This document shows positions 20,951 to 41,929 of a DNA stretch of 55,748 bases, piece after piece. Location of the stretch: the NCBI GenBank assembly GCA_011050235.1, contig DRGC01000012.1, forward strand, positions 1 to 55,748, in the 5' to 3' direction. Within the stretch, counting starts at the first letter, position 1, and every line of letters starts with the position of its first letter. The position numbers and the translations under genes were made by a program. A model generated the notes under the pieces. It searched no databases. It had not been told where the DNA came from and saw only the letters and a list, made by a program, of their open reading frames with translations. The DNA comes from Phycisphaerae bacterium. Lineage in GTDB: Bacteria > Planctomycetota > Phycisphaerae > SM23-33.

Positions 20951-22420
20951 ATGAGCGACACACATCGTTTTCTGGCGATCGACCTGGGCGCCGAGAGCGG
21001 CCGGGGCATCATCGTCACGCTCGCCGACGGTAGGGCGGAGATGGAAGAAATCCATCGCTTCCCCAGCCACCGCGTGCACCTGGGCGGCACGATGTACTGG
21101 AACTTCCCGGACCTGTGGGACGGGATCTTGAGCGCGATGCGCATCTGCGCCGAGCGAGGGGTCGATCTGGCCGGTATCGGCGTGGACACGTGGGGCGTGG
21201 ACTTCGGCCTCATCGACGCCAACGGCGATCTGGTCGGCCTGCCGGTCTGCTACCGCGATCACCGCACCGACGGCATCCACGAATACTCCGATCCGATCAT
21301 GTCGCGAGAAGAGCTCTACGAAATCACGGGCTGCAACCCGTGGAACCTCAGTTCGCTGATGCAACTGCTGGCGATGCAGCGGGACGGCTCGCCGCTGCTG
21401 AAGGCGGGCGACTGTTTCCTGCACATCCCCGATCTGATCAACTTTTTCCTGACCGGCGTGCGGGCGGCGGAACAGTCCAACCTGTCGACGGGCAACCTGC
21501 TGACGGTCCGGGGCAAATGGGCCCGACGCGTCACCAGCCGATTCAAGCTGCCGCGAAAGCTCTTCGGCGCCGACATCATCAAGCCGGCCACCCTCCTGGG
21601 CCCGCTGAGCGACGAGGTGCAAAAACTCACCGGCCTGGGGCCTATCCCCGTGGTCGCCACGGCCGGCCACGACACCGGCGCCGTGGTGGGGGCCATCCCC
21701 GCCAAGGGGCGGAAGTGGGCGTTCCTGTCGTGCGGAACGTGGGGCATTATGGGCGCGATGGTCCGCAAGCCCGTCACCGCCCCCGAAGCGCTGGCCGCAC
21801 AAATGACCAACGAGGTGTGCATCGGCGGGTGGTTCTTCTGCCGCAACATGGTGGGCATGTGGCCGGTGCAGGAACTGCGGCGGAAATGGGACACGGCCGA
21901 CGACCCCTGGGACTACGATCGCATAACAGCCGAAGCCGACCGAGCGCCCGCGGGCCCGCTGATCCCCGTGGCGGATGAATCGCTTCTGGCGCCGGACGAC
22001 ATGGAAGAGGCCTTAAACGCCGTGATCGCCAGGACAGGGCAGGGGCCCGCCGAGTCGCGGGGCCAGTTGATCCGCAGCGTGATGGAATCGGTGGCGGCGG
22101 CCTGTGCGATCGAGCTGAAGCGGATAACGCCGCTATTCGGCCATGACGTCGAGACGCTCTACATGGTCGGCGGCGCCACGGCCAACAAGCCGCTCTGCCA
22201 ACTCGTCGCCAATGCCTGCGAGCTGAAGGTGCTGGCAGGGGCCCCGGAGTGCACGGCCATGGGCAACGCGCTCGGCGTGGCGCTGGGATTGGGCATTCTC
22301 GAAAAAGCGTCCGACATCCGCCAGGTCATGCGCGATTCGGTCGAGATCGAGACCTACACGCCGCAAGACGGCGACCACTGGGCCGACCTGCGGAAGCGTT
22401 ACGCCGGGCTGGGCGACTGA
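20951..22420 (+). CDS. rhaB: Rhamnulokinase (FGGY carbohydrate kinase)
   Basis: This 489-residue kinase phosphorylates L-rhamnulose at O1. The N-terminal phosphate loop is FLAIDLGAESGRGIIV, and DLGAESGR is typical of RhaB rather than xylulose or glycerol kinases. Other marks are GVDTWGVDFGLID near 77-89, VATAGHDTGAVVGAIP near 235-250, SCGTWGIMG and MVGGATANKPLCQLVANACE near 398-417. No other rhamnose genes are adjacent; its partners are manA and a pseudouridine synthase. It is followed directly by a REP-type mini-element. Confidence 0.9.
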   Translation: MSDTHRFLAIDLGAESGRGIIVTLADGRAEMEEIHRFPSHRVHLGGTMYWNFPDLWDGILSAMRICAERGVDLAGIGVDTWGVDFGLIDANGDLVGLPVCYRDHRTDGIHEYSDPIMSREELYEITGCNPWNLSSLMQLLAMQRDGSPLLKAGDCFLHIPDLINFFLTGVRAAEQSNLSTGNLLTVRGKWARRVTSRFKLPRKLFGADIIKPATLLGPLSDEVQKLTGLGPIPVVATAGHDTGAVVGAIPAKGRKWAFLSCGTWGIMGAMVRKPVTAPEALAAQMTNEVCIGGWFFCRNMVGMWPVQELRRKWDTADDPWDYDRITAEADRAPAGPLIPVADESLLAPDDMEEALNAVIARTGQGPAESRGQLIRSVMESVAAACAIELKRITPLFGHDVETLYMVGGATANKPLCQLVANACELKVLAGAPECTAMGNALGVALGLGILEKASDIRQVMRDSVEIETYTPQDGDHWADLRKRYAGLGD

Positions 22421-22424
22421 CGCC

Positions 22425-22554
22425 GTGGCATGGCCATCTTGGCCATGCGTCTCAGGGCCATCCCCGAGCAGGGGCCCGTTGGGCCTGGCCCTGACCGCAG
22501 GTGTTTGCATGGCCGGGACGGCCATGCGACGCATGGGCGAGACGCCCATGCCAC
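22425..22554. mobile_element. REP-type mini-element with the same ends as the valS insertion
   Basis: The left unit has head GTGG (22425) followed by arms GCATGGCCA/TGGCCATGC with loop TCT. The right unit has arms GCATGGGCG/CGCCCATGC with loop AGA (22531-22551) and ends in CCAC (22554), so the heads face outward. A third palindrome (22507-22527; arms GCATGGCCG/CGGCCATGC) and a CAGGGCCA/TGGCCCTG hairpin lie between. No gene is inside. The right unit, read in reverse, is almost identical to the left REP of the valS insertion. I read this as a non-autonomous relative of that RAYT element. Confidence 0.7.
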
Positions 22555-22595
22555 GTTTTGAGACAGTTCCTAAGAAATCGAAAGGAGGCCTCTGC

Positions 22596-23246
22596 GTGCT
22601 CATTCAGACCGGACAGACCGTCCTGTTTCAGGGCGACAGCATCACCGACTGCGGGCGGCCGCGCGATGACAGCGACTCGCACCTGGGGCTCGGCTACCCG
22701 AGCCTGATCGCGGCGCAGCTACCGTTCCGCCAGCCGCAGCTCGAGATCACGTTCGTCAATCGCGGCGTCGGCGGCGGGCGGGTCCCCAGCCTTCAGGAGC
22801 GATGGCAGGGGGACTGTATCGACCTCAAGCCCGATTGGGTCTCGATCCTCATCGGCATCAACGACGCCTGCGCCATCGCGGGCGATGATTTGCCCGGCTA
22901 CGACGTCGACGGCTACGAAGCCGGCTATCGCGACATCCTCACCCAGGTGCGCGACGAGACGGGCGCAAGGCTGATCATTCTGGAACCGTTTCTGCTGCAC
23001 ACCGAGCATCCGTACGATTTCATCTCGCCGATCGCGAAGATTCGCCAAGCGCTCGACCCGATCATCCAGGTCGCCCGCACGCTTGGGGCCGAGTTCGACG
23101 CCATCACCGTCCCGCTGGACGACATGTTCCAGGAGACGTCCAAGGACGTCGACCCCGCACACTGGGCCGCCGACGCTATCCACCCGACACCGGCCGGACA
23201 CGCCTTCATCGCGAACGCGTGGCTGAAGGCCGTAGGGGCGATGTAG
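22596..23246 (+). CDS. SGNH/GDSL-family hydrolase
   Basis: This 216-residue esterase-like protein has the four SGNH blocks: FQGDSITDCG (catalytic Ser near residue 15), NRGVGGGRV (Gly), LIGINDAC (Asn) and DAIHPTPAGH (catalytic Asp and His). It resembles the rhamnogalacturonan acetylesterase / carbohydrate esterase group, and its position after rhaB fits deacylation of a sugar. The GTG at 22596 is chosen because AAAGGAGGC lies seven bases upstream; the open frame extends to 22425 but that part is REP sequence. There is no signal peptide from this start, so it is cytoplasmic. Confidence 0.88.
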   Translation: MLIQTGQTVLFQGDSITDCGRPRDDSDSHLGLGYPSLIAAQLPFRQPQLEITFVNRGVGGGRVPSLQERWQGDCIDLKPDWVSILIGINDACAIAGDDLPGYDVDGYEAGYRDILTQVRDETGARLIILEPFLLHTEHPYDFISPIAKIRQALDPIIQVARTLGAEFDAITVPLDDMFQETSKDVDPAHWAADAIHPTPAGHAFIANAWLKAVGAM

Positions 23247-28643: not shown

Positions 28644-31600
28644 ATGACGGACGACCTGCCCACAACCTACGACCCTCGCGCCGTGGAAGGCCCGGTCAGC
28701 GAGCGCTGGGCCGCCGAGGGCGCCTTCGCCGCCGACCCGGCCGCCGACGGGGCGAGCTATACCGTCGTCATCCCTCCGCCCAACGTCACCGCCCCCCTGC
28801 ACCTGGGCCACGCCCTCAACAACACGCTGCAGGACGTGCTGATCCGCTATCACCGCATGGCGGGCGACAACACGCTGTGGATGCCGGGCACCGATCACGC
28901 GGGCATCGCCACGCAGACGGTCGTCGAGAAGCGCATCCTCGCCGACGAAAACAAACGGCGCACCGATTTTACCCGCGACGAATTCATCGCCCGCGTCCAG
29001 GCCTGGAAGGACGAGTACGAGGCCCGTATCCTCATCCAGCTCAAGCTGATGGGCTGCTCGTGCGACTGGGATCGAACGCGGTTCACCATGGACGATGTCT
29101 GCGCCCGGGCCGTCCGCGAGGTGTTCTTCAAGCTGTTCGCCGACGGGCTGATCTACCGTGGCAAACGGCTGGTCAACTGGGACCCGGCCACCCAGACCGT
29201 CCTTGCCGACGACGAGGTCGAACACCAGGACGTGGCCGGGCACTTCTGGTATCTGCGGTATCCGCTGACGGAGGCTGTTACCGTTGGACGTAGCATGGGC
29301 GTCTCGCCCATGCATCCCGAGGGCGACCAGCCTGTAACCAGGCGGCAAGGGTCGTACCTTCCCCACTGGACTCAGCCCGGCGCAAAGTACGCCGTCACCT
29401 TCCGCCTCGGAGATTCGGTCCCGCAGGATGTCGCCGAAGCCTGGCGGCAGGCCCGGGATGACCTCCATCGGCGCGCGGAACGGCAAGGGCGCGAGTTAAC
29501 CCCCGACGAGCAACGTGAGTTGGCCCGGCTACACTCAGATAAGATCGAAGCCTACTTGGATGCCGGGCACGGGCAGTGCTATATGGCCGACGCTCGCATC
29601 GCAAGGTTGGTTCGCGACGCACTGAAGCACTTCAACCACCGGCGGTACGACCTGGTCGCATGGTGTGTCATGCCGAATCACGTCCACGCCGTTGTTCGCC
29701 CACTCGGGGACCACACACTCCCGGAGATCCTACACTCGTGGAAGTCTTTCACGGCCAGAGAAGCCAATAACGTTCTTGGGCTGTCAGGGCAGTTTTGGAA
29801 GAAGGAGTCCTACGACCACCTGATCAGGGACGAGGATGATTTCAATAATCAGGTGAATTATATCCTCGCGAACCCCGCGAAGGCCGGGCTGTCTGATTGG
29901 GGTTGGTGTGGGTATGAGAGTTTGCAGGAGCAAGATGCTCCTGCGACGCATGGGCAAGATGCCCATGCCACGATTACGCACGTCACCGTTGCGACCACCC
30001 GCCCCGAGACGATGCTGGGCGATACGGCGGTGGCCATGAACCCGCGCGATCCGCTGGCTGAGGCGCTTGTCGGCAAGATGGTTCGCCTGCCGCTGGTCGG
30101 GCGGGTGATCCCCATTATCGCCGACGACCACGTCGTCCTGCCCGACCCGGACAGCGACGACGAGAAGGCAAGGTTCTCCACGGGCTTTTTGAAGGTCACC
30201 CCCGCCCACGACCCCGACGACTGGCAGATCGGCCAGCGACACGACCTGCCGGTGATCAACGTGATGGCCCCGGACGGGTCGATCAGCGACCGCCACGGCT
30301 GGGACGATTGCGCCGGTTCGGACGCCGAATTCCTGCTGGGCATGGACCGCTTCGAAGCTGGCAAGGCCATCGTCGAATGGTTCAAGACAGAAGGCCTGCT
30401 CGCCGATGTCCGCGAGTACGTCCACCCGGTTGGCCACAGCTACCGCAGCCACGTGCCCATCGAGCCCTACCTTTCGGATCAATGGTACATCGCCGTCAAA
30501 CAGCCCATCGCCCACCTGGCCGAGCCCTTCGGCGAAGGTGTGATCGAAGGCACAGACGTGCCGCTCAACTCGCTGGCGGGCCTGGCCCTGAAGCCCCTGC
30601 TCGATGGCCGTCTGCGGTTCGTGCCCGATCGCTACGCCAATACCTACCGGGCCTGGCTGGAGAATCTCCGCGACTGGCCCATCAGCCGCCAGCTCTGGTG
30701 GGGCCACCGAATCCCCGTCTGGTCGCAGGACCTCGAACTACCCGCCGACGTGGAACCGGTCGAGTCCGACCGCGGCCCGGATGCGCAAACCTGCGCCGCG
30801 CTGGATCGCGCCATCGGCGGGCACTTCGGTGACACGCTGAGGCAATTCCCCAACTTCCATTACTTCCTCCGCCGCGAGAAGCACCCCGAGAAGGAAGGTT
30901 GGATCCGCACCTACATCTGCGCGCGAGAGAATGACGCCAACGCCATCGCCCTTCTCGAGAACGCCGGCTGGACGCGCGATGAGGACGTGCTGGACACGTG
31001 GTTCTCCTCGGCGCTGTGGCCGTTTTCGACGATGGGCTGGCCGGACGAGACGCCCGAGCTGGCCCGCTACTATCCGGGCAATCTGCTGTGCACGGCCCGC
31101 GAGATCATCACGCTGTGGGTCAGCCGCATGGTGATGATGGGCCAGTATTGCCTCGGCGCTCCTCCCTTCCCCGAGGTGTTCATCCACGCGATGATCCAGG
31201 ACGGCGAGGGACGCAAGATGTCCAAGAGCCTCGGCAACGGGATCGACCCGCTGGACATCATCGACAGCCACGGCGCCGACGCCATGCGGTTTACGCTGGT
31301 GACCATGACCACCCAGACGCAGGACGTTCGCATGCCGGTGGCCGAGCTCGTCACGCCCGACGGACGAACGGTCAACTCGTCGACGAAGTTCGACATCGGG
31401 CGAAACTTCTGCAACAAGCTCTGGAACGCCGCGCGTTTCGCCCTGATGAACCTCCAGGACTGCCCGCCCTTCGACCCGGCGGCCGTGACCGACCTGGCCG
31501 ACCGGTGGATCCTCAGCCGACTGGCCACCGTCGTCGGCGAGACGACGACCTCGCTGGAAAACTATCGGTACAACGAACTGGCCGACGGGTTGTACCACTT

Positions 31601-32330
31601 TATGTGGGACGATTTCTGCGACTGGTACCTGGAGATCGCCAAGAGTCGCATCAACGCCGGCGAGACGACGCCCAAGGCCGTCCTGGCCCTGTGCCTGGAC
31701 CATCTGCTTCGGCTGCTGCACCCGATCTGCCCGTTTATCACCGAGGCGATCTGGGCCAAGCTCAACGAAACGGTCCCCTCTCGCCTGGGCGACCAGCCCG
31801 ACGAGCCCTTGCTGGTCCGCGCCGCCTGGCCCGCCAGCCGGGACGATTGGATCGACCCCGACGCCATCCGGCAGTTCCCCCTCCTGCAGGATCTCGTGCG
31901 GCAGGTCCGCAACGTTCGCAAGCAGCACGACGTGCCGCCCAGCCGAAAGGTGGACGCCCTCATCGAGGCCGACGGTGACGAGGCGACGCTGATCGGCGAG
32001 ACCATCGGCCTGCTCCAATCGCAGGCGGGGCTCGGTGAGGTGTCGATGGGCAAAGAGTCCGGCGCCGACGAGGCGGCCGCGACCGTCTCAGCCGGCGGCA
32101 TCAAGCTGCATGTGCTGGGCGTCATCGACCGCGACGCCGAACTGGCCCGGCTGACCAGACAGTGCGAGCAGTTGACCAAAGGCATCGACGGCATCGGACG
32201 CAAGCTGACCAACGAGAAGTTCGTCTCCAACGCCCCCGCCGACGTCGTTCAGCGAGAACGAGATCGGATGGAGCAACTCCAAGCCCAACTGGCCGTCGTC
32301 CAGGAGGCCATCGCGTCGCTGAGCGGCTAG
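28644..32330 (+). CDS. valS: Valyl-tRNA synthetase containing an in-frame RAYT transposase
   Basis: This 1228-residue open frame is a class I valyl-tRNA synthetase: the HIGH motif is HLGH at residues 53-56, the KMSKS motif KMSKS at 858-862, then an anticodon-binding domain and a C-terminal coiled coil. Residues about 216-443 do not belong to ValRS. They are a transposase domain entered through REP sequence and placed between RYPLTEAVTV and THVTVATTRPETMLGDTAV. That is the hairpin leading into the CP1 editing domain, where ValRS proteins normally vary in length. Removing it leaves about 1000 residues, slightly long for the family. There is no stop or frameshift anywhere. The start at 28644 is preferred for the family N-terminus and the promoter position. 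Whether the chimera is translated, spliced or processed is unknown. Confidence 0.9.
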   Translation: MTDDLPTTYDPRAVEGPVSERWAAEGAFAADPAADGASYTVVIPPPNVTAPLHLGHALNNTLQDVLIRYHRMAGDNTLWMPGTDHAGIATQTVVEKRILADENKRRTDFTRDEFIARVQAWKDEYEARILIQLKLMGCSCDWDRTRFTMDDVCARAVREVFFKLFADGLIYRGKRLVNWDPATQTVLADDEVEHQDVAGHFWYLRYPLTEAVTVGRSMGVSPMHPEGDQPVTRRQGSYLPHWTQPGAKYAVTFRLGDSVPQDVAEAWRQARDDLHRRAERQGRELTPDEQRELARLHSDKIEAYLDAGHGQCYMADARIARLVRDALKHFNHRRYDLVAWCVMPNHVHAVVRPLGDHTLPEILHSWKSFTAREANNVLGLSGQFWKKESYDHLIRDEDDFNNQVNYILANPAKAGLSDWGWCGYESLQEQDAPATHGQDAHATITHVTVATTRPETMLGDTAVAMNPRDPLAEALVGKMVRLPLVGRVIPIIADDHVVLPDPDSDDEKARFSTGFLKVTPAHDPDDWQIGQRHDLPVINVMAPDGSISDRHGWDDCAGSDAEFLLGMDRFEAGKAIVEWFKTEGLLADVREYVHPVGHSYRSHVPIEPYLSDQWYIAVKQPIAHLAEPFGEGVIEGTDVPLNSLAGLALKPLLDGRLRFVPDRYANTYRAWLENLRDWPISRQLWWGHRIPVWSQDLELPADVEPVESDRGPDAQTCAALDRAIGGHFGDTLRQFPNFHYFLRREKHPEKEGWIRTYICARENDANAIALLENAGWTRDEDVLDTWFSSALWPFSTMGWPDETPELARYYPGNLLCTAREIITLWVSRMVMMGQYCLGAPPFPEVFIHAMIQDGEGRKMSKSLGNGIDPLDIIDSHGADAMRFTLVTMTTQTQDVRMPVAELVTPDGRTVNSSTKFDIGRNFCNKLWNAARFALMNLQDCPPFDPAAVTDLADRWILSRLATVVGETTTSLENYRYNELADGLYHFMWDDFCDWYLEIAKSRINAGETTPKAVLALCLDHLLRLLHPICPFITEAIWAKLNETVPSRLGDQPDEPLLVRAAWPASRDDWIDPDAIRQFPLLQDLVRQVRNVRKQHDVPPSRKVDALIEADGDEATLIGETIGLLQSQAGLGEVSMGKESGADEAAATVSAGGIKLHVLGVIDRDAELARLTRQCEQLTKGIDGIGRKLTNEKFVSNAPADVVQRERDRMEQLQAQLAVVQEAIASLSG
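29290..29313 (+). repeat. Left REP of the valS insertion (in-frame coding)
   Basis: Head GTAG (29290-29293) is followed by 9-bp arms GCATGGGCG and CGCCCATGC around loop TCT (29293-29313). It is translated as part of valS (residues about 216-223, SMGVSPM). RAYT enzymes recognise a GTAG or GTGG head before the hairpin. Confidence 0.8.
29948..29971 (-). repeat. Right REP of the valS insertion (inverted)
   Basis: Arms GCATGGGCA and TGCCCATGC surround loop AGA (29948-29968), and the unit ends in CCAC (29968-29971), the complement of GTGG. It is the mirror image of the left REP. It is read in the valS frame as THGQDAHAT. Confidence 0.8.
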
Positions 32331-35394: not shown

Positions 35395-36186
35395 ATGACC
35401 TCGACAGAAACAACCCAATCCCCCAACGGGGCCGGCGACAACGAAAGCCGGCGTGCGGTCATTATTCGGACCGTCGCGCTCAAGAAGGAATACCTGATCG
35501 GCCAGGTCGTCACGTACGCCCTGCGCGGCATCGACGTGGAACTGTACCGCGGCGAGTTCATCTGTGTGATGGGACCGTCGGGATCGGGCAAGAGCACGTT
35601 CTTCAACATGGTCGGCGGCCTGGACGCGCCCACCTCCGGACGGGTGTTCATCGACGAGGTGGACGTCGCCCAACTCAGCGCCGTGGAGCTGGCGTTCCTG
35701 CGGTGCCGAAAGATCGGGTACATCTTCCAGACCTACAACCTCGTGCAATACATGACGTGCCTGGAAAACGTCACCGTGCCGATGGCGTTCGCCGGCGTCA
35801 GCGGCGACCGGGCCCAGCAGCGCGGCATGGAGCTGCTGGAGCTGGTGGGCCTGGCCGAGCGGTGGTTCCACAAACCGATCGAAATGTCGGGCGGCCAGCA
35901 GCAGCGTACAGCCATCGCGCGATCGATGGCCAATCAACCCTCCGTCCTGCTGTGTGACGAACCCACCGGCAACCTGGACCTCAAGACCGGGTCCGAGATT
36001 CATGACTGCCTGATGAAACTGAACAAGCAGCGCGGCGTCACCATCATCTGTGCGACGCACGATCATCGCCTGATCAACATGGCCGACCGGATTATGTGGA
36101 TCCGGGACGGCCAGATCGAGCGGCTGGCTGATCGATCCGAGGTGACGGTCGAAACCGGCACGATCGAAGGAGAGGAAAATGCCTAG
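35395..36186 (+). CDS. LolD/MacB-type ABC transporter ATPase
   Basis: This 263-residue ATPase has Walker A GPSGSGKS, the signature MSGGQQQR, Walker B VLLCDEPTGNLD and the His switch ATHDHRL. The YALRGIDVELYRGEFICVMG start and GYIFQTYNLVQYMTCLENV Q-loop put it in the LolD/MacB/FtsE group, which energises FtsX-like permeases. Its last eight bases overlap the giant FtsX gene. It is a close paralogue of the ATPase at 43998-44726. It probably couples to the FtsX-type permeases on either side. Confidence 0.93.
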   Translation: MTSTETTQSPNGAGDNESRRAVIIRTVALKKEYLIGQVVTYALRGIDVELYRGEFICVMGPSGSGKSTFFNMVGGLDAPTSGRVFIDEVDVAQLSAVELAFLRCRKIGYIFQTYNLVQYMTCLENVTVPMAFAGVSGDRAQQRGMELLELVGLAERWFHKPIEMSGGQQQRTAIARSMANQPSVLLCDEPTGNLDLKTGSEIHDCLMKLNKQRGVTIICATHDHRLINMADRIMWIRDGQIERLADRSEVTVETGTIEGEENA

Positions 36187-39100
36187 GCCCCGCGTGTGGT
36201 GGATCTGCGTGATCCTGCTGGTGATCGGTGGCGCCATCGGCGCCGCGCCCGCCCAGACATTGCGCAACACGCTCGACAAAGCCCAGTTCGTCCGCGATGT
36301 CGAAGCCCTGACGAAATACGCCCACCGCCTGGCGGGCTTCGGCAGCGAAGAGCGAATCGCCGAGATGGCGCGGCGCATCGAAAGCACCCGCACCCAGGAC
36401 GACCCCGACCGCCCCGTCTCGGACATCTTCCATGAGGCCACCGATGCCGTTGTCGCCTACCTGGACGACCCGGACAATATCGCCGACGCACCGGGCAGCC
36501 TGCTGGCGTCGCAATACATCCAGAATCGTCTGACGGCCATCCGCGAAAGCCTGCCCGCTGGTGAGCGAAAGGCGTTCACGATCTTCACGCAGGAGTTCGA
36601 CGTCGTCCAGGCGAAAACCACCGAATGCCGCCTGGTGATCGATGGAAAGTCCCACACGCTTTACGCCACGCGGCCCAACGGCGTTGTCGCCCGCGTGACG
36701 CCTGCAGACGGCCTGACGGGCCGCTTGCTGTATGCGAGCAAGGGCAGGCTTGAAGACTACGGCAACCGCTCGCCCCAGGACGCGATCGTCGTGCTCGATT
36801 ACGACGGCGACTGGCAGACGCCGTTTGCCTTCGGCGCCAAGGCCGTCATTGTCCTGGGCGACCTGCAGGCGACACGGCCCATGTCGTATTGCCTGAACGT
36901 TCCGGCCACTCTGCCTTTGTTTTACCTTCCGCCCGAAACCGCCCAAGCCATCCGCCTGAGGCACCGCGCCGCCAGTGAGACAACCGTCTCGGGCACCATC
37001 TTTGCCGGGGCAAAGTGGCATCGCCTTCGCGGACGAAACGTGATCGCCGTGCTCAAGGGCACCGCCCCCAATATGAGCGATCCCGGAAAACCCGATCAGG
37101 CCCTTCTGCTGGCCGCTCCGATCGACAGCCTGTCGGAAGTCCCCGCCCTTTCGCCCGGAGCGCGCGACGCCGCCAATGCCGCCGCCCTGCTGCAACTGGC
37201 CAAGTACATGGCCTTCAACCGTCCAAAACGCGACGTGGTGCTGTGCTTCTTCGACGGGCAGACCGTGAACCACCAGGGCGCGCGGGCGTTCTACGACGCG
37301 ATTCGCCGGCCTCGATACGACAGCGACGCCAACACCGCTCCAGCGGTGGGCACCGCGCTCGAGAAACGCTCCAACTCGGTCCTCGAAGAGTACGAATTTC
37401 AGAACTATGCCATCGCGATCCTCAACCAGGAAAGCGTCTTCAAGCCAGATACGCACGATCTGATGCAGCGGCGCAACGCGATGCGTAAGGACGTCCACAT
37501 TCCGCTGATCCTGAAGATCGGTCCCATCCTGCGCAACTGGAGTTTTGTGGCGATGACGATCATTCTGGCCGCCATTGCCATCATCCTTTCGGCCGTCCTG
37601 CAACGCGACGAGGATCAAAAGCCGCCCCTCCAAGCCGCGCAGCGGTCGGCCACAGTCGGGGCCGTCATCCTGGCGGCGGCGATGGTCTATGGGCTGTTCG
37701 TCGACCCGGCGCTCTTCGATAAGCGACGCGGACAACTCGAGCGGCAAACGCAACAGAACCGCTCGCGGATGGACGTCCTGACCAAGAAGATCGAAGGCCT
37801 CGAAAGCAGCCACCGCGCCACGCTGGAACTGCTGAAGGACCAGGCCCGCATTGCCGACAGCGACGCCCTGGAGAAACTCCGGCCGATGCGAATCCTGGTG
37901 GGCACGCTCCCCCGCCAACTGGTCGCACTCGAAACGTCCATCGCCGATCTGACCAGGCGGCACGACGAAATGAAGGACACGTCGGTCGAGACCCCCGCAG
38001 CCGAGCGAGACAAGCTGGCCAAACAGATTGCCGCGCAGTCCGATGAAGCCTTGCGGCTGCGGGCAGCGATCGACCAGGCCCGCGACGCGCTGAACGAATT
38101 TGAGATCGAGGACCTTCTGTGGAACACCTGTCTGCGAATTATCCAGCAGGAACTCGACTGGCGTGACATCACCTTCGTCAAGAAGAAGAAAATCGCCGAC
38201 TCGCTGATCGACCAGCAGGATCCCGCCCGCCAACAGGCCAAGCGTCAGGCGTTTCTGGAACGTTTGACGGGCAAGCTGAAAGACCCGGAGACCGATACGT
38301 GGGAGATCAACCCGGCCGAACTCGACCGGCGTTTCCAGGGCGTCTTCGGCCAGCTGAAACGCGACGTCATCAATGCCTGCCAGCAGCGCAAGAAGGAACT
38401 CCTGCTGCGCGACGTGGACATCGTCCAGGCCATCCGCCTGAACGAAGCCTTGGGCGTCAAGCAAAGCATTGTGGCGTTGCACGTCAGTCTCAATCTCGCC
38501 GACGAGCGCCCCTTCTGGACCTTCATCCACGGTGATCGCTCGTCCAGCCTCGACAAGGACACAGTCAGTTCCTATGACGAATGGGTTTTCAAGGCCGTTC
38601 GCGCCACCGTCGAGGAACTAGGCTCGCGGGTCGCGCACTTCGACGAACGGGCCGTCAGCGGCCAATATGACATCGCGCTGTTCGGCGGGCCGGGCGTCGA
38701 TAGTAGCGGCATGGCGAGGCTGTTCGGGATCAAGAATGTCTCGGTCATGACGGTGATGGATCACCTCAACCGTCAGGGGCAGGTCAACGACACAACCGCG
38801 GCGCTGGACCTCGACACGATGTTCACCCAGGTCGCCGAAATCGCTCCCCTGTTTCGGATCCTCGCCGATAGCGATCAGCTTCTGGGCCGAGCGAATTTGC
38901 CAAACCGGGTACGCCACTTTGAGGTCCAGTGGGAGAACAACCGCCTCAAAGGTCCGAAAGTCGCTCGCACCAGCGCCGGCCACGCCATGCGCCAGCACCC
39001 CGTGCCCGACGCCGTGATGACGGTGTATGACACGTGGGGGTGGCAAGCTCTCACGACACCGCCGGGATTCGTCGGCACGCTGATGGCCATGACCAATTCG

Positions 39101-41929
39101 AGGGGCTTCTGCGAGTTCGGCCCGTTCGACAGCACACGGGTACGGTGGGGGTTCCGGTGTCTGGCGGCCTCCTTCGATGACGACAATCCGGGCGTGGTGC
39201 GGTTTATCACCAACGAAAAGACGATCGGCTCGGACCAAGTGACGCTCTTCGAGGCACGGTCGATGACGTTCGTGAACTATGGATTTGCCGCCGCCGGAGG
39301 CACGCTGGCGATGGAGGCATTACAGACAGCGGCCATGGCGCCGACGCTCCGGCTCGTGTGCGAGGCCGGTCAGATCATGACCGTTTACGCCCCCGTCGCA
39401 GCCAAGGGAATCAAACTGTTCAATAGTGGGTCCTTCGTCGTCCTCAACAACGATGCAACAAAGGCGAATTACCAGGGCACGGGGATCCCGCTTGGCTCGC
39501 TGGCCGATGAGTTCTCCCACCCCATTGTGATCGAAAGCAGCGCCCGTGACCTGGGCATGCTGAACACCTATCGCCTGCAGCTTCTGCGCGACAGCCGGAT
39601 CTACCAGGAATCGCTGGAGGTGATCAACGGCCAGGCCGGCGACTTGCTGTCCGACACGATCGCCAGCGGCATCGAAGGGGCGGGCCTCCAATCATATGCG
39701 GGCAACGCCGCCGTCTCGGCCGCCCTGTCACGGGCGGTCTATCCGCCCCTGCTGACCGTGATGAACGATCTGGTCACCGCCGTCGTCCTGCTGTTGATGC
39801 TGGCCATGCCGTTCGCCTTCTGCATGGAACGCCTGCTGATCGGCTCGCCCCATATCTACCGTCAGATCGCAGGCTTCGCAGGGTTCTTTGTCGGGACCTT
39901 CGGCATTCTGTACGTCGTCAACCCGGCGTTTAAGATTGCCACGACCCCCATCATTATCTTCCTGGCGTTCGCGATTTTGTTATTGTCATCGCTGGTGATC
40001 TTCCTGCTGATCCGAAAGCTTCAGTCGACCGTCAAGGCCTTCCAGGGCCTGGGCCAAACGGTCCACAGCACCGACGTCTCCCGTATCAGCACGATGGCCG
40101 CTGCGGTGATGATGGGCATTTCGACCATGCGGCGGCGCCCATTGCGAACGTTTCTGACCGCCAGCACCGTTGTCCTTCTGACGTTCACGATTCTGACGTT
40201 CGCATCCTTCGGGTCCAGCTACGACAACCGGCGCAGCTACAAGGGCCCCATGACGGGCATGCCGCCCCGTATGATGATCCACGATCCGTTCTGGAACGCC
40301 ATGGACGCCGGTGTCGTCGAAGTCCTCCGAGGCCATCTCAAAGGCCAAGCCACCGTCGTGCCTCGCTACTGGATGTCGCCGACCGCCCAGACCGCCCAGG
40401 CCGCCGCGAAGACCGGACTTTCGATGGACAAGCTGCTGGCCAACGACACGACAGAGCGCATCGTGCCGATCGGCGCCGGCATCGGCATCGATCCGGCCGA
40501 TATCGAGAAGCAAGCGCACCTGCGTGAGCTTTTCGCACCCGGGTCGCGATTCGAACTGCTGGCCGAGAACGGCATCTTCCTGACCGAGGCCATCGCCAAA
40601 CGACTCGGGTTCGGCCCCGACGACGTCGGCGTGGCCATCGTGCGTCTGGCAGGCCAGAAATTGATATTCGCCGGCACGGTCAGTGACGATCTGGCCGGGT
40701 TCAAGTCGCTCGAAGGATCGAGCGTCGTCCCGGTCGACTTCGAAATGAGCACCGGCAAGGAAGGCATCGCCCCACAACAGGTCGGCGGCGACCAGGGCTT
40801 GAAAGAACCCCCGGAAATCGAGACCGGGATGTTCGCCGTCTTCGGCCTCGATGACGTCGTGATTTTCGGCCCCGAGACCGCCAAACGCGTGGGCGCAACG
40901 GTTCGGTCCCTGACCATCTATCCGGACGATCCCGCCGAGGTCGAAGCCATCGCCGACCGCGTGGCGAAGGTAACGCGCCTGCCAACGTATTTCGGAATCC
41001 ACGGCGAAGTCTTCCGCTTTGTCTTCACCACGGTCATCTCGGCCAGCGGCCTCAAGGACCTCCTCATCCCAATGGCCCTGGGCGGGCTGATTATCTTTGC
41101 CACGATGCTCGGCAGCGTCAGCGACCGCGAGCGGGAAATCTACACCTTCAGTTCGCTGGGGCTCGCACCGGCCCACGTGGCAAGCCTGTTCTTCGCCGAG
41201 GCGGCCGTCTACGCCATCATCGGCGGCATGGGCGGGTACCTGCTGGGCCAGACCGTCGCCCGCGTGCTCAGCTGGGTCAGTACCTTCGCCAATGTCGCCG
41301 TGCCGACGATGAACTACAGCTCGACCAACGCCATCATGACCATCCTCGTGGTCATGGGAACGGTTCTTCTGTCCACGATCTACCCGGCGATCAAGGCCTC
41401 ACGCAGCGCCAACCCGGGCATTCAGCGGTCGTGGAAAATCCCCAAGCCCGAAGAAGATCTGTACGATCTGATTTTCCCGTTCACCGTCTCGGCCTACGAC
41501 ATCACCGGCGTGGTGAACTTCCTCAAGGAGCACTTCGAAAACTACAGCGACACGTCGCTGGGGATCATGGCCACCAGCGAATCGCACGTCTTTCGACAGG
41601 CGGCCAGCAGCGAACGCATCGGCGTGACGGCTACCATGGCCCTGGCGCCGTTCGACCTGGGCGTCAACCAGCACTTCGCCCTGCTCAGCCAGCCCAGTGA
41701 GATTGAAGGCATCGACGAGATCCGTATTCTGATCCAGCGGATCACCGGCACACGAGGTGATTGGCTGCGGGCCAATCGAATCTTCATCAACGACCTGCGG
41801 AGACAGTTGCTGATCTGGCGATCGTTAACGCCCGAAGTCATGGACCAATACCGCCAGCGCACCCTCGATGCCTGGGACGACCTGCCGCAGGAGAAGATCG
41901 ACGAGCTCCTGATTGGAGATATGTCGTGA
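36179..41929 (+). CDS. Giant FtsX-type permease with a degenerate M28 peptidase domain
   Basis: This 1916-residue protein has an N-terminal signal or TM helix (7-25) and a PA/M28-like region (about 140-375). That region keeps the M28 outline (AAPIDS at 312-317, PGARDAANAAALLQLAK at 325-342, CFFDGQTVNHQGARAF at 356-371), but the His of HxD is Pro and the EE pair is Gln-Thr, so zinc and catalysis are lost. TM helices follow near 456-510, then a long coiled coil (about 520-680), a large soluble region, TM helices near 1195-1350 and an FtsX-type domain near 1580-1745. A soluble C-terminus ends near 1916. The start overlaps the ATPase gene by eight bases with GAAGGAGAGG upstream. Confidence 0.75.
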   Translation: MPRPRVWWICVILLVIGGAIGAAPAQTLRNTLDKAQFVRDVEALTKYAHRLAGFGSEERIAEMARRIESTRTQDDPDRPVSDIFHEATDAVVAYLDDPDNIADAPGSLLASQYIQNRLTAIRESLPAGERKAFTIFTQEFDVVQAKTTECRLVIDGKSHTLYATRPNGVVARVTPADGLTGRLLYASKGRLEDYGNRSPQDAIVVLDYDGDWQTPFAFGAKAVIVLGDLQATRPMSYCLNVPATLPLFYLPPETAQAIRLRHRAASETTVSGTIFAGAKWHRLRGRNVIAVLKGTAPNMSDPGKPDQALLLAAPIDSLSEVPALSPGARDAANAAALLQLAKYMAFNRPKRDVVLCFFDGQTVNHQGARAFYDAIRRPRYDSDANTAPAVGTALEKRSNSVLEEYEFQNYAIAILNQESVFKPDTHDLMQRRNAMRKDVHIPLILKIGPILRNWSFVAMTIILAAIAIILSAVLQRDEDQKPPLQAAQRSATVGAVILAAAMVYGLFVDPALFDKRRGQLERQTQQNRSRMDVLTKKIEGLESSHRATLELLKDQARIADSDALEKLRPMRILVGTLPRQLVALETSIADLTRRHDEMKDTSVETPAAERDKLAKQIAAQSDEALRLRAAIDQARDALNEFEIEDLLWNTCLRIIQQELDWRDITFVKKKKIADSLIDQQDPARQQAKRQAFLERLTGKLKDPETDTWEINPAELDRRFQGVFGQLKRDVINACQQRKKELLLRDVDIVQAIRLNEALGVKQSIVALHVSLNLADERPFWTFIHGDRSSSLDKDTVSSYDEWVFKAVRATVEELGSRVAHFDERAVSGQYDIALFGGPGVDSSGMARLFGIKNVSVMTVMDHLNRQGQVNDTTAALDLDTMFTQVAEIAPLFRILADSDQLLGRANLPNRVRHFEVQWENNRLKGPKVARTSAGHAMRQHPVPDAVMTVYDTWGWQALTTPPGFVGTLMAMTNSRGFCEFGPFDSTRVRWGFRCLAASFDDDNPGVVRFITNEKTIGSDQVTLFEARSMTFVNYGFAAAGGTLAMEALQTAAMAPTLRLVCEAGQIMTVYAPVAAKGIKLFNSGSFVVLNNDATKANYQGTGIPLGSLADEFSHPIVIESSARDLGMLNTYRLQLLRDSRIYQESLEVINGQAGDLLSDTIASGIEGAGLQSYAGNAAVSAALSRAVYPPLLTVMNDLVTAVVLLLMLAMPFAFCMERLLIGSPHIYRQIAGFAGFFVGTFGILYVVNPAFKIATTPIIIFLAFAILLLSSLVIFLLIRKLQSTVKAFQGLGQTVHSTDVSRISTMAAAVMMGISTMRRRPLRTFLTASTVVLLTFTILTFASFGSSYDNRRSYKGPMTGMPPRMMIHDPFWNAMDAGVVEVLRGHLKGQATVVPRYWMSPTAQTAQAAAKTGLSMDKLLANDTTERIVPIGAGIGIDPADIEKQAHLRELFAPGSRFELLAENGIFLTEAIAKRLGFGPDDVGVAIVRLAGQKLIFAGTVSDDLAGFKSLEGSSVVPVDFEMSTGKEGIAPQQVGGDQGLKEPPEIETGMFAVFGLDDVVIFGPETAKRVGATVRSLTIYPDDPAEVEAIADRVAKVTRLPTYFGIHGEVFRFVFTTVISASGLKDLLIPMALGGLIIFATMLGSVSDREREIYTFSSLGLAPAHVASLFFAEAAVYAIIGGMGGYLLGQTVARVLSWVSTFANVAVPTMNYSSTNAIMTILVVMGTVLLSTIYPAIKASRSANPGIQRSWKIPKPEEDLYDLIFPFTVSAYDITGVVNFLKEHFENYSDTSLGIMATSESHVFRQAASSERIGVTATMALAPFDLGVNQHFALLSQPSEIEGIDEIRILIQRITGTRGDWLRANRIFINDLRRQLLIWRSLTPEVMDQYRQRTLDAWDDLPQEKIDELLIGDMS

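Follow-up and report, generated by a model that had tools for sequence, protein, structure and literature searches.

The element at positions 22425–22554 of the window (the whole stretch of 55,748 nucleotides that we analyzed, contig 12 of a 4.0-Mb assembly in 98 contigs) is probably, at odds of about two in three, a GT[AG]G-tagged REPIN that was copied into the space between rhaB and an SGNH hydrolase gene, most likely by the HuH/Y1 RAYT whose cognate gene lies in frame inside valS. We observed the tags, a four-hairpin anatomy, an end-to-end fold, the same ends as in the RAYT element, copies in two size classes, stems matched to lineage, and co-occurrence of the repeats with the RAYT.

The element is an inverted doublet of paired hairpins

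Features of the element and its flanks:
20951–22420, plus strand: upstream FGGY sugar kinase (rhaB-like)
22425–22554, no strand assigned: whole four-hairpin REPIN-like element, 130 bp; end-to-end fold, z −6.3
22425–22448, plus strand: left outer unit, GTGG tag and hairpin H1 (GCATGGCC-ATCTT-GGCCATGC)
22452–22494, plus strand: H2, inner hairpin with a long loop, TCAGGGCC...GGCCCTGA; module also in other gene-free copies of the same genome
22507–22527, minus strand: H3, right inner hairpin, followed by a GAC linker
22531–22554, minus strand: H4, right outer hairpin and CCAC (the GTGG tag on the minus strand)
22555–22570, minus strand: right flank GTTTTGAGACAGTTCC (reverse GGAACTGTCTCAAAAC), then TAA; possible TIR remnant, suggestive only
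22596–23246, plus strand: downstream GDSL/SGNH hydrolase, GTG start after AAAGGAGG

The bounds originally predicted for the element (22425–22554, 130 bp) proved exact, and its placement between rhaB and an SGNH hydrolase agrees with the FGGY sugar kinase found on one side and the GDSL/SGNH hydrolase on the other. The element begins four bases past the kinase stop codon, which ends at 22420, and finishes 41 bases ahead of the hydrolase GTG start. A longer GTG frame for the hydrolase, from 22425, runs through the element and is an annotation trap. Two hairpins had been predicted, and both the GTGG-headed one (22425–22448) and the CCAC-tailed one (22531–22554) were borne out; the count was incomplete, however, since two more lie between them at 22452–22494 and 22507–22527. 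The full layout is GTGG-H1-GTC-H2-spacer-H3-GAC-H4-CCAC. As read, the 5' half is GTGG, CATGGCC-ATCTT-GGCCATG, CGTC, TCAGGGCC...GGCCCTGA and spacer, and the 3' half is spacer, GCATGGCC-GGGAC-GGCCATGC, GAC, GCATGGGC-GAGAC-GCCCATGC and CAC.

The arrangement is that of two REPs in inverted orientation with a spacer between them, and a GT[AG]G tag, here GTGG, sits at the hairpin foot on both ends. The 41-nt ends of the element are 83% complementary. As single-stranded DNA the doublet folds as a whole, end to end, into a hairpin of −48.2 kcal/mol (z = −6.34, beating 200 of 200 shuffles), and as RNA it folds with a z of −6.08 (again beating 200 of 200). A chance inverted repeat was ruled out by the end complementarity, the fold z, and the counts of the tagged-hairpin pattern against a reversed control. 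No Rfam family was found within the window, and searches for plasmid relatives of the element found none.

The strong RNA fold (z of about −6.1) and the position between two co-directional genes are also what would be expected of a static REP cluster retained for RNA structure, acting as a transcript stabilizer or attenuator of a rhaB-SGNH message. However, copies occur in unrelated surroundings, some of them within coding frames, and neither the tags nor the RAYT-matched stems would be required for such a role. We consider this explanation improbable, although a role in RNA structure could be a secondary effect of the element.

The REPs within 22425–23246 and 29290–29971 translate to recurring peptides (HGQDAHAT, MGVSPM, MGETPMP). 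These REPs therefore insert in frame with no stop codons and inflate annotated proteins. Elsewhere in the window, at 36179–41929, a 1916-aa protein matches the PADLOC models CARF_m8 with a LolE transmembrane part, over residues 1552–1793 only.

The element shares its ends with a RAYT in frame inside valS

Features of the valS locus:
28644–32330, plus strand: valS frame including the RAYT, 1228 aa from an inferred start codon
29290–29971, plus strand: RAYT-bearing element in frame in valS, 682 bp, 6.7 kb downstream of the mini-element; its parts are a GTAG hairpin (29290–29313), RAYT coding sequence, hairpins at 29924–29944 and 29948–29968, and CCAC

The valS reading frame stays open across the inserted segment, which NCBIfam identifies as a REP-associated tyrosine transposase (85 bits, cut-off 80) and which retains the HVH motif (MPNHVH) and a Y..NP..AGL motif. 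Valyl-tRNA synthetase (ValRS) of T. thermophilus aligns on both sides of the insertion and spans with five residues a stretch that takes up 238 in this protein. The ends of the RAYT element have the same layout as those of the mini-element (GTRG-hairpin on one side, hairpin-GAC-hairpin-CCAC on the other). The near match first noted between the right unit in reverse orientation (GTGGCATGGGCGTCTCGCCCATGC) and the left REP in valS (GTAGCATGGGCGTCTCGCCCATGC) held at 23 of 24 bases. A cognate RAYT flanked by the same type of REP is thus present in the genome.

Six Y1-transposase genes of this genome score above the Pfam cut-off, and GTRG hairpins occur at the ends of the valS RAYT only. The other Y1 transposases were rejected as the source of the element, given that their flanks lack these REPs and that different repeats accompany the IS200-like copies. 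Of the latter, four Y1 transposase genes (L034, L035, L036 and L037) are flanked by GGCCC-TTCG/GAAG-GGGCC palindromes, a second repeat system unrelated to the REPs of the element.

Copies in the same genome fall into two size classes

Repeats were collected genome-wide by pattern searches and DNA searches. Within its own genome, BLAST returned one match to the element at full identity and four relatives at 83–85% identity; the fifth relative is a 92-bp version. Measured from tag to tag, the window copy and its five relatives are 92, 124, 130, 131, 131 and 154 bp long, and all are gene-free. There are also three shorter remnants (two single 27-bp palindromes and one truncated copy), so that the copies are dispersed and multiple but low in number, at six gene-free pairs and three remnants. 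The tagged-hairpin pattern matched 28 times, compared with once for the reversed control, each palindrome being counted in both readings. Among all copies, a gene is present solely in the 682-bp RAYT element inside valS.

The near identity of their ends would fit a mini-element that arose directly from the valS RAYT element by internal deletion, with no long-lived lineage of its own. In contrast to this expectation, the TCAGGGCC mid-hairpin module is common to the gene-free copies and missing from the RAYT element, so the gene-free copies form their own lineage and descend from each other. This derivation, already disfavored, is in our judgment very improbable. Since the copies in this genome are only 83–85% identical, a recent burst is excluded, and the divergence among their sequences argues that activity here has probably been old or slow, as the literature on REPINs in general likewise describes.

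Repeats match the RAYT by lineage in related genomes

Throughout the family, relatives have tens to hundreds of such copies, in a matching version particular to each lineage. In the genus g22 (two species, G021 and G030), 65 units with CTTGG stems gave 12 convergent pairs of 90–127 bp and one RAYT locus of 724/748 bp; no divergent pairs were found among these units. Convergent pairs are frequent in g22, though many units score as single. The check proposed at the outset was for copies of two kinds, those flanking a RAYT and empty ones with the spacing of this element, and these were recovered both in the element's own genome (92–154 versus 682 bp) and in g22 (90–127 versus 724/748 bp). The contrary pattern, common single REPs with random spacing, was not seen, the g22 pairs being convergent at 90–127 bp with none divergent.

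The 64 distinct elements collected have a median length of ~109 bp; 31 of them show the order ++--, in which two hairpins and a spacer precede two inverted hairpins, and the rest are mostly subsets of this arrangement in which one hairpin falls below threshold. G025 alone has 484 units, whereas the reversed pattern gave 0 there. Tandem arrays are present in some genomes, G025 above all, where tagged hairpins recur at 33-bp spacing (e.g., L097–L101, contig C9 148451–148764). Stem sequences vary while arm pairing is kept; some of the pattern searches required both arms to be paired, which biases counts of stem pairing, and loci found by similarity alone have the same pairing.

CTTGG stems, the type found at the g22 RAYT ends, gave 65 of their 68 matches in g22, with three one-mismatch matches elsewhere, whereas g22 has almost no CATGG stems. 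CGCGG stems reach their highest number in G002, where the RAYT ends (ACGCGGGC) are of the CGCGG type, and are common in G007 (RAYT ends CGCGGGC). They are also present in G015, G021, G025 and G006, and because they occur where the RAYT ends differ in type, the matching of stem to RAYT is a tendency. Each of the nine other genomes that have a RAYT of at least 51% identity contains at least five units, compared with 9 of 51 without one (Fisher p = 3e-6, which ignores kinship and, the genomes being related, overstates independence). The nine genomes with repeats and without a detected close RAYT suggest either that the repeats survive or spread in its absence or that the MAGs are incomplete.

RAYTs are embedded in ValRS at the same site in several genera

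Embedded RAYTs:
L070, L071, L072, L073, L074, L076, L078 and window 28644–32330: RAYT in frame in ValRS, inserted before TVATTRPETML
L075, L077, L080, L082: RAYTs in frame in other hosts (ValRS C-terminal, flavoprotein-like, PglX-like, LeuRS)

An in-frame RAYT occupies the same site of ValRS in G002, G007, G015, G021, G027, G030 and G038, which with the element's own genome makes eight genomes in seven genera. Relative to the window, the RAYT of these genomes is 48–57% or 51–59% identical, depending on the comparison, and ValRS 62–79%; in the G021 copy (L072) the contig ends just after the RAYT. The RAYT of G006 lies in another, C-terminal part of ValRS, and that of G025 in a protein resembling electron-transfer flavoprotein beta. 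More distant RAYTs were detected in two further proteins, one at the equivalent editing-domain position of a leucyl-tRNA synthetase (G035) and the other within a large PglX-like, methyltransferase-like protein (G059). REPs of the element's type were not found beside the G035 and G059 RAYTs. The other embedded RAYTs, except the G021 copy at the contig end, have hairpins of this type on either side, with a tag that varies (GTGT in G007).

Some copies in g22 carry terminal inverted repeats and 3-bp duplications

Composite elements, REPIN core inside TIRs:
L134, L141, L145, L162, L165, L166, L168, L174, L176, L178, L186, L190, L200

An outer inverted repeat, GAGC[CG]TGTATGAAAA, encloses a subset of the G021 and G030 copies. 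All 13 distinct TIR-bounded elements (TIR GAGCSTGTATGAAAA), most of them 147–154 bp long, have an identical 3 bp outside each end (12 TNA and 1 TCG). Y1 transposases of the IS200/IS605 type make no target duplication, and TNA duplications are known from IS5-type elements. Given that the 3-bp duplications are not a Y1 product, these copies have moved as DDE-type MITEs with a REPIN as core. DDE_Tnp_1, sought as the driver of this class in a search for that family only, was not found in G000, G021 or G030. Other copies lie within different inverted repeats, the 95% level of the null being attained by 15 of 44.

These composites raise the possibility that the mini-elements as a whole are or were DDE-type MITE cores, REP hairpins between TIRs with a 3-bp TNA target, and that the window copy is a one-sided relic. 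Beyond the duplications in g22, its right flank (GGAACTGTCTCAAAAC/TTA) resembles a TIR and target, and a similar sequence adjoins one other copy in its own genome (2 flanks seen, 0.006 expected, post hoc). As a genome-wide target the flank motif was rejected, with only one copy within one mismatch. However, the window copy shows no left partner for this flank and no target duplication, for which reason we do not class it with the TIR-bounded elements, and the pairing between its flanks does not exceed that of random pairs (5.5 versus a null median of 6). TIRs bound only a subset of the g22 copies, no DDE_Tnp_1 was found in G000, G021 or G030, and this scenario leaves the match of stems to RAYT ends unexplained. 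We regard it as unlikely for the window copy and the mini-elements at large.

Discussion

Mobilization in trans by the valS RAYT, proposed for the element at the outset, is in our view the best explanation. The shared ends, lineage-matched stems and co-occurrence are strong circumstantial support. On the other side, no recent copies were seen, some relatives moved with duplications, and a search for an empty orthologous site (via rhaB, in GTDB genomes) found none, yielding two relatives, both without an SGNH neighbor. In such a mechanism the RAYT would recognize GTGG-tagged hairpins in single-stranded DNA, excise the element as a single-stranded hairpin, and re-insert it without target duplication. 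The enzyme might be supplied as part of the valyl-tRNA synthetase message or from within it.

REPINs are gene-free inverted REP doublets with a spacer, occurring mostly as doublets, predicted to form a single hairpin and linked to a RAYT particular to the genome (Bertels and Rainey, 2011, PMC3116915). The element shares the gene-free inverted doublet with spacer, the one-hairpin fold and the genome-specific RAYT. It differs in that its halves carry two stem-loops each, not one, for a total of four hairpins with GTC/GAC linkers, and in having its cognate RAYT in frame inside valS. The GTAG REP families of PVC bacteria have a GT[AG]G tag, form head-head dimers with structured spacers, some in palindromes, and in some cases lie in frame in genes, tRNA synthetases included (Di Nocera et al., 2013, PMC3733652). 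Tag, PVC host, head-head dimers and in-frame gene copies are common to both, but here the outer arms of one palindrome-embedded class are TIRs with 3-bp duplications. Di Nocera et al. also described REP dimers inside palindromes and, in two species, found no empty target palindromes; a MITE origin would account for such cases. In the REPtron, or TnpA-REP, concept (PMC6006769), one RAYT corresponds to each REP type and has REPs with the GT[AG]G foot on its flanks, and REPtrons are considered not to transpose as a unit. Our RAYT has such flanks; unlike in that scheme, it shares a single host gene with its REPs, and the site is the same across several genera.

REPINs as such, the GT[AG]G tag and the REP families of PVC bacteria are already known. 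Three features are new here: halves that regularly hold two hairpins each, a link to a RAYT that is fixed in frame within ValRS in several genera, and a hybrid with a MITE that duplicates its target; in a literature search mostly outside subscription journals, we found no paper describing any of these. More tentatively, at somewhat less than even odds, the repeats may form a REPIN population kept by a RAYT domesticated in ValRS (one site, eight genomes, seven genera), with RAYT-end hairpins and REPINs having drifted jointly in a lineage-specific manner, and serving in one genus also as the core of a DDE-type MITE, which would place two unrelated transposition chemistries on one repeat.

REPINs endure over very long periods alongside RAYTs that are single-copy and inherited vertically. 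Frameshift or nonsense mutations could not remove a RAYT that lies in frame in an essential gene without also destroying ValRS, which would provide a simple reason for its retention. Given the TIRs and duplications seen in g22, some REP dimers in palindromes of other bacteria may likewise be MITE hybrids. This planctomycete-like group offers many genera in which the co-evolution of RAYTs and their repeats can be tested.
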